Part shown: positions 24,704 through 32,700 of the stretch, piece after piece
Position numbering within the stretch: position 1 is the stretch's first letter
Layout: every line of letters begins with the position of its first letter
Program-made: the position numbers and the translations under genes
IMG/VR virus record: IMGVR_UViG_3300036846_000821
Location: 1 to 32,700 of that record
DNA length: 32,700 nucleotides
Source: a virus
Reading direction: 5' to 3' (one strand)
The notes under the pieces: generated by a model
The model's input: the letters and a program-made list of their open reading frames with translations, nothing else
Databases searched by the model: none
What the model was told of the DNA's origin: nothing

Positions 24704-24885
24704 CCGACCAACCACCAGACCCCGAGAACCCCGACAACATCCACATCGCCGCCCACCCCCTCCCCCACGGAGTCGTCATCCTCGAATGCACCCGCTGCGG
24801 CATCCTCGGGCTCTACCCCGTCGGCACCGCCAGCCACCAAGCCCTCAACCACCTCGCCGAAGAACACGGAGTCCCCATCCCATGA
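24700..24885 (+). CDS. Small C2H2-like zinc-finger protein, 61 aa
   Basis: VILECTRCGILGLYPVGTAS then HQALNHLAEEHGVP: C-x2-C and H-x4-H of a finger. ATG overlaps the upstream TGA (ATGA). Common small actinophage type; target unknown. Confidence 0.7.
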   Translation: MTDQPPDPENPDNIHIAAHPLPHGVVILECTRCGILGLYPVGTASHQALNHLAEEHGVPIP

Positions 24886-25466
24886 CCACCAGCGGACTCG
24901 TCCGGTTCCACCCCGACCTCGCCGACCTCCTCGTCAACATCGACGACGTCCACCAACACCCCGACAACCCCAACAACGGCGACGTCGAAGCCATCACCAC
25001 CTCCATCGAGATCAACGGCATGTACCGGCCCATCTACGTCCAAAAAACCTCCGGCGCGATCATCGCCGGAAACCACACCTGGGAAGCCTGCAAAACATTG
25101 GGCGCCGAACAGATCCCCGTCATCGAGATCGACTGCGACGACACCACCGCCCAGCGGATCCTGCTCGCCGACAACAAGATCGCCGCCCTCGCCCAACCAG
25201 ACGACGCACTCCTGCTGAACCTCCTCGAAAACCTCGCCGCCACCGACTCCCTCCTCGGCACCGGCTACCGGCCCTACGACATGGAAGTCCTCCGCCAGTT
25301 AGCCCAGATCGCGCCCGACTACGAAGGCGACCACGCCACCTGGCCCCTCATCCAGATCCGGATCCCCCCCCACATCCGCGACGCCTACTACTCCATGACC
25401 GAGTCCGCCGTCGGAGAACGCGAACGGTTCGAACTACTCATGCGGCTCGCCGGATGGGAAGGCTGA
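24882..25466 (+). CDS. ParB-like nuclease domain protein
   Basis: 194 aa. VNIDDVHQHPDNPNNGDVEA, then INGMYRPIYVQKTSGAIIAG, NHTWEACKTLG (residues 64-74, the ParB GHRR-type box) and LADNKIAALAQPDDALL. Phage proteins of this type have the ParB N-terminal CTPase/nuclease fold but no partition DNA-binding half. Role in phages is unclear. ATG overlaps the upstream TGA. Next to the methylase, as in other actinophages. Confidence 0.82.
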   Translation: MTTSGLVRFHPDLADLLVNIDDVHQHPDNPNNGDVEAITTSIEINGMYRPIYVQKTSGAIIAGNHTWEACKTLGAEQIPVIEIDCDDTTAQRILLADNKIAALAQPDDALLLNLLENLAATDSLLGTGYRPYDMEVLRQLAQIAPDYEGDHATWPLIQIRIPPHIRDAYYSMTESAVGERERFELLMRLAGWEG

Positions 25467-28996: not shown

Positions 28997-29014
28997 GGTC
29001 CTGTGCACAGGACC
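28997..29014. repeat. OIR copy 35
   Basis: Perfect palindrome, spacer GC; marks the left edge of the membrane/collagen cassette, just before the ribosome binding site of the 29028 gene. Confidence 0.95.
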
Positions 29015-29587: not shown

Positions 29588-30125
29588 GCCGGTCGTCTCG
29601 TTCACGTTGGCTGGGGCGCTGGGCCTGACCGCACTGGCCTCCTCGGTCGTCAACGCCGCCGTCCACCCCGAGTCGGTCCCCGGTACCACCACCCAGGTCC
29701 TGTCCACAGGACCCACCGGACCACCCGGACCGCAGGGTACGCAGGGGCCACCGGGCAGACGAGGACCGCCGGGCAAGCAAGGGCAGCCCGGAACCCAGGG
29801 TCAGCAGGGAACCAACGGGACTGCCGGGACCAACGGCAGCAACGGCGGGCCAGGACCCCCAGGACCTCCCGGCACCCGGGGACTGCCAGGTCCGCGCGGA
29901 CTGCCGGGACGCCCAGGCCCCCCCGGAAAGGACGGGACCCAGGGGCAACCCGGACCTCGCGGACCACGCGGCTCGCGAGGGTTCCGTGGAGTGTCCGGCA
30001 CCCCGGGTCCCGCAGGACCACCGTGCCCCACCGGGTACACCGGCATGCGGCTCGGCCTCCACGAACGTGACCCTGCCGATGTGACCATCTTCGTCTGGGT
30101 GTGTGTCGCCCATACCCAGGGGTGA
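29574..30125 (+). CDS. Collagen-like protein with N-terminal membrane/signal segment
   Basis: 183 aa. Hydrophobic lead [20 protein letters not shown], then VLSTGP from OIR copy 36, then about 34 Gly-X-Y triplets (residues 46-148, for example [19 protein letters not shown]) and a C-terminal cap with [20 protein letters not shown]. Collagen-like trimers occur in phage fibres and decoration proteins; here the membrane-type lead and the place between terminase and portal are unusual. GTG overlaps the upstream gene. Confidence 0.85.
29696..29713 (+). repeat. OIR copy 36 (rightward)
   Basis: Perfect arms, spacer CC on +, in the same polarity relative to the gene; at the junction of lead and collagen domain. 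Confidence 0.95.
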
Positions 30126-30177: not shown

Positions 30178-31932
30178 ATGCCGCGTCGCCGCCCGCCGGA
30201 ACCGGCGGTGCCAGTTTCCACCGCACTCGTCGCAGCAGTGACCCGATATCCCGGAAAAGCCGCCCGGATCTACCGGCCCAACCAGGACTGGCAGGTCGAG
30301 TGCTACCGGCAGTACGGCATCTGCGGCGAAGCCAGGTTCGCCGCCAGGTTCTTCGGCAACGCCGTCTCCCGGGCCACCCTGAACGTGCAGAAGATGAACG
30401 GCCCCCACCCCGAAGCCGTCACCACCGGCCCCGCGTTCGCCGCCCAGCAAGACCTGTGGGGCGGACCGCAGAACCAGTCCCAGATGCTGCAGGCGATCGG
30501 GACACACCTCACCATCGCCGGAGAGTGCTACCTGGTCGGACGCACCGGCGACGACGGCACCGACCGCTGGGAAGTGGTGTCCTGCATCGAGATGCGGGTC
30601 AACGGCGACACCTGGACCATCAACTACGGCAACGGGCTCCCCGCCGTCGAACTCACAGACTCCGACGTGGTGCTCAGGATCTGGCTCCCCTCCCCGGTCC
30701 GACAGATCGAAGCCGACTCCCCCTACCGCAGCCTGCTACCCATCCTCTCCGAGATCGAGTGGCTCACCCGCCACGTGTTCGCGCAGATCACGTCCCGCCT
30801 CGCAGGCTCCGGCATCCTGATGATGCCGCAGTCGATGACGTTCCCACCGCCCCCCGCCCCCGACGGCCAAGAGATCGCCGCCTCCAACGACGCCGACACG
30901 TTCATGGCGACCCTCGCCGACGCGATGATGCGGCCTATCGAAGACCCCGGCAACCCGTCCGCCGTGGTCCCGATCGTGGTCACCGCCCCCGACGACGCGA
31001 TCGACAAGGCGAAACTGCTGACCTTCTGGTCCGAGTTGGACGCCCAGTCCATGCAACTGCGGAGCGAGGCGATCCGCCGGTTCGCGCTCGGCATGGACCT
31101 GCCCCCCGAACAGGTCCTCGGCATCTCGTCCCGCAGCGGCGGCGGCTCCGGCTCCGGCTCCGGCGCCGTCTCCCACTGGGGCGCCTGGCAGATCGAGGAA
31201 GCCACCATCAAACTTCACGTCGAGCCGATGCTCGACGTGATCGTCCAAGCCCTCACCACCGGCTACCTGGACCCGCTGGTCGACGACGGCTCCTACTTCA
31301 CCTACGACACGTCCTCGCTGAAACTGCGGCCCGACCGCTCCAAAGAAGCCTTCGAGTTGTACGACCGGGGACTGATCTCCGCCGAAGCCCTCCGCCGGGA
31401 GAACGGGTTCCCCGAAGACGACGCACCCAGCCACAACGAAACCGTCCAGTGGCTGCTGCTGAAAGTAGCGTCCGGGTCGTCCACCCCCGACCAGGTAGGC
31501 GCCGCACTGAAAGCCCTCGGCGTCGCCCTCGACGTACCCGCCCTGGGCCTGCCGTCGCGGGAAGCCCAGCCGCCGCCCTCTCTCGAAGAGCATCCCACCC
31601 GACCCCGCACCCCCGACGAGTCGGCTCTGGTAGCCGCCTCCGAAGCGCTGGTGTTCCGGGCACTGGAACGGGCCGGGAACCGGCTCCGCGCCCAAGGCAC
31701 CCGGCCCCCGGGGGTGCCGTCGTACGAAACCCACCTGTACGCCAAAGGCGACGAACGGTGCCTCGAAGACGCCTGGTCGTGTGCCGACCTGATCCTCGAC
31801 GGGATCGCCGACCCGGTCCAGGTGGTCCCCGTCCTCGACTCCTACTGCCAGTCGCTGCTCGCCGAACGGTCCCCCCACAAACGGGAACGGCTCGTCAACT
31901 GGCTCCGGCTGGCGAACCAGGTGAGCGCATGA
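30178..31932 (+). CDS. Portal protein
   Basis: 584 aa. WQVECYRQYGICGEARFAAR, LTIAGECYLVGRTGDDGTDR, SEIEWLTRHVFAQITSRLAG, AKLLTFWSELDAQSMQLRSE, AIRRFALGMDLPPEQVLGIS and the C-terminal EAFELYDRGLISAEALRREN pattern are those of the HK97/SPP1-type portal of actinophages. It forms the dodecameric entry for DNA and joins head to tail. The Ser/Gly-rich loop after residue 315 (SSRSGGGSGSGSGAV) is unusually flexible. Stop overlaps the MuF start (ATGA). Confidence 0.9.
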   Translation: MPRRRPPEPAVPVSTALVAAVTRYPGKAARIYRPNQDWQVECYRQYGICGEARFAARFFGNAVSRATLNVQKMNGPHPEAVTTGPAFAAQQDLWGGPQNQSQMLQAIGTHLTIAGECYLVGRTGDDGTDRWEVVSCIEMRVNGDTWTINYGNGLPAVELTDSDVVLRIWLPSPVRQIEADSPYRSLLPILSEIEWLTRHVFAQITSRLAGSGILMMPQSMTFPPPPAPDGQEIAASNDADTFMATLADAMMRPIEDPGNPSAVVPIVVTAPDDAIDKAKLLTFWSELDAQSMQLRSEAIRRFALGMDLPPEQVLGISSRSGGGSGSGSGAVSHWGAWQIEEATIKLHVEPMLDVIVQALTTGYLDPLVDDGSYFTYDTSSLKLRPDRSKEAFELYDRGLISAEALRRENGFPEDDAPSHNETVQWLLLKVASGSSTPDQVGAALKALGVALDVPALGLPSREAQPPPSLEEHPTRPRTPDESALVAASEALVFRALERAGNRLRAQGTRPPGVPSYETHLYAKGDERCLEDAWSCADLILDGIADPVQVVPVLDSYCQSLLAERSPHKRERLVNWLRLANQVSA

Positions 31933-32700
31933 AGACCTTCGACGTGGTCGAGTTCGCCGCCCAACGCCGCCGCTACCAAGACCTCGCAATCGACGCGATC
32001 GAGATGCTGGCGTCCAAGTGGCTGGTCGACCCGTCCGAGGAGAACCGGGACCGGCTGCTCGGCGAAGTCCGCTCCGTCTACCAGCGGACCTACCGCACCG
32101 ACAACGGCGAAGGCGAACCCCACGCCGCCACCGTCGCCGACACCATCGCCAGCATCCTGTCCCATTCCAGCCCAGACACCGACTCCTACACCCTGGCGAC
32201 CCTGCTCGCGATCAACGCCATGAACGCCGCCGCCCAACAGGCCGCCGACGACAACAGCGAACCGATCCTGTTGGAGTGGGTGACCATGCACGACGCCGAC
32301 GTGCGGCCCACCCACCGCGACGTCGACGGGGAACGCCGCCCACCCGGAGAAACCTGGGACGTGGGCGGCTCGGCGCTGCACTATCCCGGCCAACCCGTCG
32401 GGGACCCTTCCGTCTGGATCAACTGTCGGTGCACGCTGGCACCGGTGACCGCCGACACGGCACGACTCGGAGGTCCTGTGAACAGGACCACCTCAGGAGG
32501 AACCATGACCATCACGTCGACCAACACCAACGGCCTGCAGTCCTTCACCACCCAGGTCGACGCACCCGCAGCGGAACCCACCGAGACGACCGCCCCGATC
32601 GTGGTGCCCTGGCACGGGGTCCTCGCCCCCGAAGGGAAGTGGTCCGGCGACGGACGCCGGTTCGCCGAGAACTCCCTGTCCACCCGGGACCTGCCGCTGC
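31929..32700 (+). CDS. MuF-like minor head protein fused to a capsid protease (5' part)
   Basis: Open from ATG 31929 to the window end (257 codons). The first 180 residues hold a helical part and the MuF C-terminal motif (WVTMHDADVRPTHRDVDGER, WDVGGSALHYPGQPVGD, WINCRCTLAPVT). OIR copy 37 encodes GPVNRT. Then SGGTM is followed by a linker and VPWHGVLAPEGKWSGDGRRF, which looks like the start of a prohead protease. AGGAGGAACC precedes the in-frame ATG at 32505, so a separate shorter protease product is possible. Confidence 0.8.
   Translation, partial: MKTFDVVEFAAQRRRYQDLAIDAIEMLASKWLVDPSEENRDRLLGEVRSVYQRTYRTDNGEGEPHAATVADTIASILSHSSPDTDSYTLATLLAINAMNAAAQQAADDNSEPILLEWVTMHDADVRPTHRDVDGERRPPGETWDVGGSALHYPGQPVGDPSVWINCRCTLAPVTADTARLGGPVNRTTSGGTMTITSTNTNGLQSFTTQVDAPAAEPTETTAPIVVPWHGVLAPEGKWSGDGRRFAENSLSTRDLPL
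32472..32489 (+). repeat. OIR copy 37 (rightward, within the MuF-protease gene)
   Basis: Perfect arms, spacer GA on +, again in transcription polarity; in frame, followed by AGGAGG and an in-frame ATG. Confidence 0.95.

Follow-up and report, generated by a model that had tools for sequence, protein, structure and literature searches.

A conserved in-frame internal start suggests that phage MuF–protease fusion genes encode a second product, a free capsid maturation protease

Phage genes that encode a MuF domain and a capsid maturation protease in a single frame very probably specify two products, the long MuF–protease and a free protease translated from an internal start. This reading comes from the comparison of one such gene, at the end of a 32,700-base virus record in IMG/VR (hereafter the window, i.e., the whole stretch of DNA analysed), with its relatives in other phages. 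The original prediction, made from the window, held that two genes had fused and/or that one gene makes a long and a short product by internal initiation, and named conservation of the internal AGGAGG/ATG as a check. Across many divergent phages these signals proved to keep their position and frame, their choice among synonymous codons and their low mRNA structure, and the comparison across relatives supports the prediction.

The MuF and protease domains share one open frame

In the window, the portal gene (30178–31932, plus strand; Pfam Phage_portal, E=3e-6, 27.1 bits, under the curated cut-off of 39.1) lies directly upstream of the MuF–protease gene, whose ATG at 31929 was read directly from the sequence as overlapping the portal stop codon (ATGA). 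Translational coupling of the two genes is likely. From 31929 to the record end at 32700 (plus strand, codons 1–257) the frame contains no stop codon, and it remains open past the end of the record. Its N-terminal part encodes a MuF (SPP1 gp7/Mu gpF-like) domain (32205–32438, plus strand; residues 93–170), which matches Pfam PF04233 (Phage_Mu_F) with 31.9 bits against a gathering cut-off of 29.6; PHROG head-morphogenesis families match the same region. Relatives (contigs L005–L013 and many more) likewise read from MuF into the protease with no stop, the full-length proteins being 780–950 amino acids long, and contig L017, near-identical to the window at residues 216–257, carries the protease frame on to a normal stop codon. 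The same frame therefore runs into a capsid maturation protease, as judged from the relatives and from L017, and sequence comparison indicates that the fusion is real and not an error. A search of genome contigs yielded no relatives. Contig L096, in which the MuF frame stops soon past the motif, with AAGGAG and a GTG behind it, was left out of the analysis.

MuF and protease also occupy one ORF in several cultured phages, namely the Cluster EG phage Hyperion, the Arthrobacter phages Beagle and SilentRX and the Mycobacterium phage Acadian, and in cultured relatives a major capsid gene is seen downstream, a gene that next to the window's fusion would fall past the end of the record. Actinobacteriophage genes of this kind, named 'Capsid maturation protease and MuF-like fusion protein', stand after the portal gene and before the major capsid gene (PMC7302621). 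They are annotated as single-product genes, unlike the dual-product reading proposed here. In other phages MuF and protease are separate genes, as in FuzzBuster (26/27) and Shotgun (22/24). In the Actinoplanes phage phiAsp2, 20 nt separate the TAG that ends MuF (pas6) from the start of the protease (pas7), where the sequence reads GAGGAGGAGCC-ATG; this start, GAGGAGGAGCC-ATG-ACG, resembles AGGAGGAACC-ATG-ACC of the window. These three phages differ from the window in that a stop codon or a further gene separates MuF from protease, but their proteases are collinear with the predicted internal product and begin at the homologous place. The sequences thus support an evolutionary relation of the fusion to the separate genes, in keeping with the original suggestion that formerly separate genes were joined.

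A palindrome precedes the internal start

Within the fused gene, a palindrome, an AGGAGG and an in-frame ATG at 32505 with no stop codon had been pointed out, and all were confirmed by direct reading. The Shine-Dalgarno (SD) sequence (32495–32500, plus strand), kept in homologues against the synonymous-codon expectation, and the ATG (32505–32507, plus strand; codon 193), itself conserved in relatives and the predicted start of the free protease, form the junction AGGAGG-AACC-ATG, which is exactly in frame in a frame open throughout. The 16-nt palindrome core GTCCTGTNNACAGGAC (32473–32488, unstranded, where the sequence is GTCCTGTGAACAGGAC) ends 16 nt before this ATG; its 18-nt form, GGTCCTGTGAACAGGACC, spans 32472–32489. 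The core occurs at 36 places in the window, giving 72 strand matches with at most 2 mismatches against 1.8 expected from shuffles. The 18-nt form GGTCCTGTNNACAGGACC recurs exactly in only one other viral contig, L017, according to a search that may omit records very near the window.

Other relatives carry palindromes of their own: 10 copies of GTTCTGTNNACAGAAC in L006 (genome G001), 38 of GTTCACTNAGTGAAC in L008 (G003), 5 of GTCAGTNACTGAC in L029 (G004) and 3 of GGTTAGGNNCCTAACC in L068 (G005). None of these four motifs was present in the other records searched, and each of the four genomes has a copy in the MuF–protease linker, roughly 15–25 nt before the internal ATG. A window copy in an ordinary gene-start arrangement (28998–29013, unstranded) precedes the ATG of the following gene by 14 nt, and the homologous sites of L006 and L008 hold their own palindromes; several further sites are syntenic among window/L017, L006 and L008 despite their different sequence. 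Several palindrome positions are thus shared while the sequences are swapped from phage to phage, which looks like wholesale replacement of the recognition sequence of a regulator. One window copy (29697–29712) is located inside a collagen-like ORF with no start nearby, and L006 and L008 also have a collagen-stretch copy elsewhere.

Palindromes stand 10–30 nt before an ORF with SD and ATG at 13 of the 36 window sites and 15 of the 38 G003 sites, compared to 5–6% at random, mostly at 13–21 nt, a range which the distances to the internal start in the window and G003 (16 and 17 nt) fit. This stricter test replaced a looser one that was uninformative, 30% of random positions satisfying it. The palindromes are therefore of the dispersed, start-associated kind described for Clusters O and EG, with many identical copies enriched 13–22 nt upstream of starts. 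Cluster O phages have a 17-bp palindrome, with 34 copies in Corndog, about a third of them inside ORFs and often just upstream of starts (PMC4351075), and Cluster EG phages, which carry the same fusion, have 8–10 copies of 18-bp inverted repeats 14–22 bp before start codons (PMC7302621). Both are precedents for multiple inverted repeats per genome, as in the window; the sequences differ, and here the same positions hold phage-specific palindromes, one of them inside the MuF–protease gene. The Cluster K ESAS are imperfect 17-bp repeats with 4–13 bp spacers beside a 13-bp SAS (PMC3203893). They too are tied to translation starts, and at a given gene family their inverted-repeat sequence varies from one subcluster to another (PMC3203893), whereas the window type is a compact, perfect palindrome of 13–16 bp with no SAS. 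Cluster A stoperators, which are asymmetric and oriented with transcription, were ruled out, the window sites being perfect palindromes.

The original prediction had grouped the repeat and the start in one arrangement, and this link held in part: a copy does precede the internal ATG, but the repeat is independent, lineage-specific, spread genome-wide and missing at this place in several relatives. Many phages with the internal SD and ATG show no recognised palindrome, and in L033/L035, L052, L060/L063 and L077/L078 palindrome families are present with no copy in the MuF–protease linker. As these palindrome-less linkers keep the SD and ATG, a requirement of the palindrome for the internal start was rejected: it is the start that is conserved, and the palindrome is optional and forms a separate layer. 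RNA folding of the palindrome region gave a 7-bp hairpin with an overall energy equal to that of shuffles. Because the arm sequence is near-invariant over the 36 copies, sequence-specific binding is favoured over RNA pairing alone. In the most likely reading, a dimeric regulator particular to each phage binds the palindrome, which is positioned here as it is at other gene starts. A protein with a ParB N-terminal domain, encoded upstream of the terminase gene (24882–25466, plus strand), is a candidate palindrome-binding protein. In two other contigs (L018:2486-3118 and L019:4715-5347), three copies of GTTTCACGTGAAAC, the canonical bacterial parS core, occur in and around the MuF–protease gene, two of them in the linker.

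The palindrome might instead be an internal promoter or operator that places the protease and the downstream head genes on a separate mRNA, where internal initiation would mainly occur. In favour of this, the palindrome is a perfect dyad resembling an operator, recurs at gene starts throughout the genome and has a lineage-specific sequence. The many relatives with SD and ATG but no linker palindrome, some of which (L033, L052, L077) have a palindrome family elsewhere, speak against it, as does the observation that most Cluster O sites do not adjoin a recognised promoter (PMC4351075), and we consider a promoter at this place unlikely.

Conservation of the internal start

With one mismatch allowed, AGGAGG-N4-ATG has 5 matches in the window against 6.3 expected, which is not significant. 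As single-genome statistics are insufficient, the internal start was established by conservation, using 50 distinct MuF–protease genes from viral metagenomes, made non-redundant at 75% shared 4-mers. In 43 of the 50 genes the 70 codons that precede the protease block include an in-frame ATG or GTG preceded by an SD match of at least 5 nt, the codon being ATG in 37 of these genes, and the distance from the internal ATG to the protease anchor has a median of 22 codons (interquartile range 19–25). The junctions read GGAGGAGTCACC-ATG, GAAGGAGTCACC-ATG, GGAGGGATCACC-ATG, GAAGGAGGGACCACC-ATG and others alike, the remainder of the linker aligning poorly. An SD match of at least 5 nt precedes 39 of 81 linker ATGs compared to 39 of 604 ATGs outside the linkers of these genes (Fisher p=6e-20, odds ratio 13.5, with all ATGs counted and no best one picked); homologous sequences share ancestry, so the p-values given here are indicative and overstate certainty, the effect sizes not being subtle. 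Synonymous codon resampling predicts 11.4 SD-bearing ATGs in the linkers, where 39 are seen, and 32.7 elsewhere, where 39 are seen, hence only the linker is enriched.

Messenger structure gives a similar picture. In 37 of 37 genes the mRNA at the internal start has less structure than the average of the gene (mean +5.3 kcal/mol), the difference averaging +5.9 against other positions of the same linkers and +3.2 against synonymous recodings. The SD match at the internal start, taken as the best of several linker ATGs, is on average 5.3 nt long compared to 4.4 nt at the MuF start (41 genes, p=0.007). When a domain is inserted between MuF and protease (L052, L058, L064, L065, L039, L088), the SD and ATG stay just before the protease; the internal start goes with the protease and not with the MuF end. 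The linkers of many relatives (L052, L058, L059, L064, L065, L067, L076, L077, L083) contain a 2'-5' RNA ligase/2H-phosphoesterase-like domain, the L052 insert matching Pfam PF13563 and the others being assigned by similar sequence; the inserted enzyme is possibly delivered with the virion.

The conservation has exceptions. A strong internal SD is absent from L016 and from the cultured Beagle and Hyperion, which likewise lack a strong internal start, so the internal SD is not essential in all of these phages. In L036, L049, L058, L087 and Acadian the SD match falls in Glu-Glu codons and is expected from coding alone. Among cultured fusions, candidate internal starts are found in the Arthrobacter phage Wilde (a GTG), the Mycobacterium phage Jeon and Tonitrus, and a weaker one in Acadian. 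Taken over the gene set, a conserved in-frame SD and start codon are under synonymous constraint, as in an in-frame nested gene.

These start signals could be a fossil of the fusion, left over from the protease gene in phages that now make only the long protein. Separate-gene arrangements do exist, as described above. Fossil signals, however, would be expected to drift until their codon usage matched that of the remaining gene, and the signals observed are kept against synonymous drift in widely diverged genes and after domain insertions; a fossil thus appears quite improbable. The residues themselves, GG-x-T-M, might be kept for a protein reason, as a flexible linker or a protease self-cleavage site, with the SD as a by-product, and GG/EG-x-T-M does recur ahead of the protease domain. 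Against this, codon choice is constrained beyond the amino acids: the Gly codons 2–5 before the ATG are GGA in 43 of 49 cases compared to 9% in the rest of the genes, and Glu before the ATG is encoded by GAA in 18 of 34 cases compared to 21%. Moreover, the residues vary by lineage (EGVT, GGIT, QGVT, GGD, VGDA) while the nucleotide SD persists, and we give this explanation very little weight. That AGGAGG and ATG met by chance in a GC-rich gene, a combination about as frequent as expected in a single genome, is contradicted by all the comparative results and is hardly credible.

The predicted free protease

From ATG 32505 onward the window contains 65 codons. The first part (32505–32606, plus strand), poorly conserved in alignment A1, would be a variable and probably disordered stretch, the N-terminal tail of the free protease or an interdomain linker, and is followed by the start of the prohead-protease domain (PWHGVLAPEGKWSGDGRRF...; 32607–32700, plus strand), a highly conserved block cut by the record end after its first ~31 residues. 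The fold was tested on a relative, L028, instead of on the truncated window protein. The AF2 model of its internal product (621 of 810 residues; mean pLDDT 82) has pLDDT below 50 at residues 1–8. A beta-rich domain predicted with confidence follows from about residue 15 to 150, then a middle part made of helices and, at 404–560, a second beta domain; in this model the new N-terminus lies in a disordered tail a few residues ahead of the fold.

The protease region matched nothing in Pfam even at E=10, a Pfam match not being defining for this fold, and a PDB sequence search with the protease gave no match, so a fold search was used instead. PDB fold matches to the L028 model comprised herpesvirus assemblins (HCMV protease, E=8e-4) and T4 gp21 (E=3.5e-3), and BFVD matches comprised phage capsid maturation or prohead proteases, including the stand-alone protease of FuzzBuster and Pas7 of phiAsp2. 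The modelled internal product of L028 thus has a prohead-protease-like fold (herpes assemblin/HK97/T4 gp21), and it is this fold, together with the capsid maturation protease annotation of homologues, that supports the protease assignment. Counted from the internal Met, H61 and S108 do not vary among 36 homologues, as would be expected for a Ser-His prohead protease, and they would be catalytic. The second, C-terminal beta-rich domain (L028:7777-8247; residues 404–560), with conserved His and SGDWR motifs, is common to the stand-alone proteases and might be a second protease-like or a capsid-binding domain.

Discussion

In the mechanism that we propose, the fusion would have kept the ribosome-binding site and start codon of the protease in frame. 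Ribosomes entering at the MuF start, ATGA-coupled to the portal gene, would synthesize the long MuF–protease, able to dock on the portal, and those entering at AGGAGG/ATG 32505 would synthesize a free protease with the same C-terminus and roughly three quarters of the full length. A single gene would in this way yield a small number of copies linked to the portal and, apart from these, a probably larger pool of free protease available to the prohead, the fusion being kept at a low, portal-linked level and free protease being added by internal initiation. Prohead assembly generally involves few portal-associated copies and more protease, and a low fusion level with added free protease fits these needs. 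We infer from the sequences that both proteins are made, as well as their ratio and their roles.

Nested head genes of the lambda C/Nu3 type also yield two products in one frame with a common C-terminus, the short one being made by internal initiation. As in the genes studied here, the lambda pair acts in head assembly; in lambda, however, the short product is the scaffold and the upstream part is the protease, whereas in the MuF–protease genes it would be the protease that is short and MuF that lies upstream. Nested in-frame initiation in phage head genes is therefore already known, and what appears to be new is its occurrence in a gene class so far annotated as single-product. We found no description of an internal start in MuF–protease genes in the open-access literature.

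A further reading, which we offer as a rather doubtful speculation, is that this group of phages sets the ratio of portal-bound to free protease by dual initiation and that in some lineages the ratio is set by a phage-specific DNA- or RNA-binding protein that recognises the palindrome of its own phage. In this view the palindromes would form a regulatory code in which related phages exchange all the letters and retain the positions, one of them inside a structural gene.

MuF–protease fusions are recorded as one protein in many actinobacteriophage annotations, and if the dual-product reading is true, a product has been missed. It would also explain simply how a single gene can encode both a portal-associated protein present in few copies and a protease present in many. 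Synonymous constraint may serve as a way to find dual-product head genes, and palindromes swapped at fixed positions may be a natural experiment for identifying the regulator behind repeats of the Cluster O/EG type.
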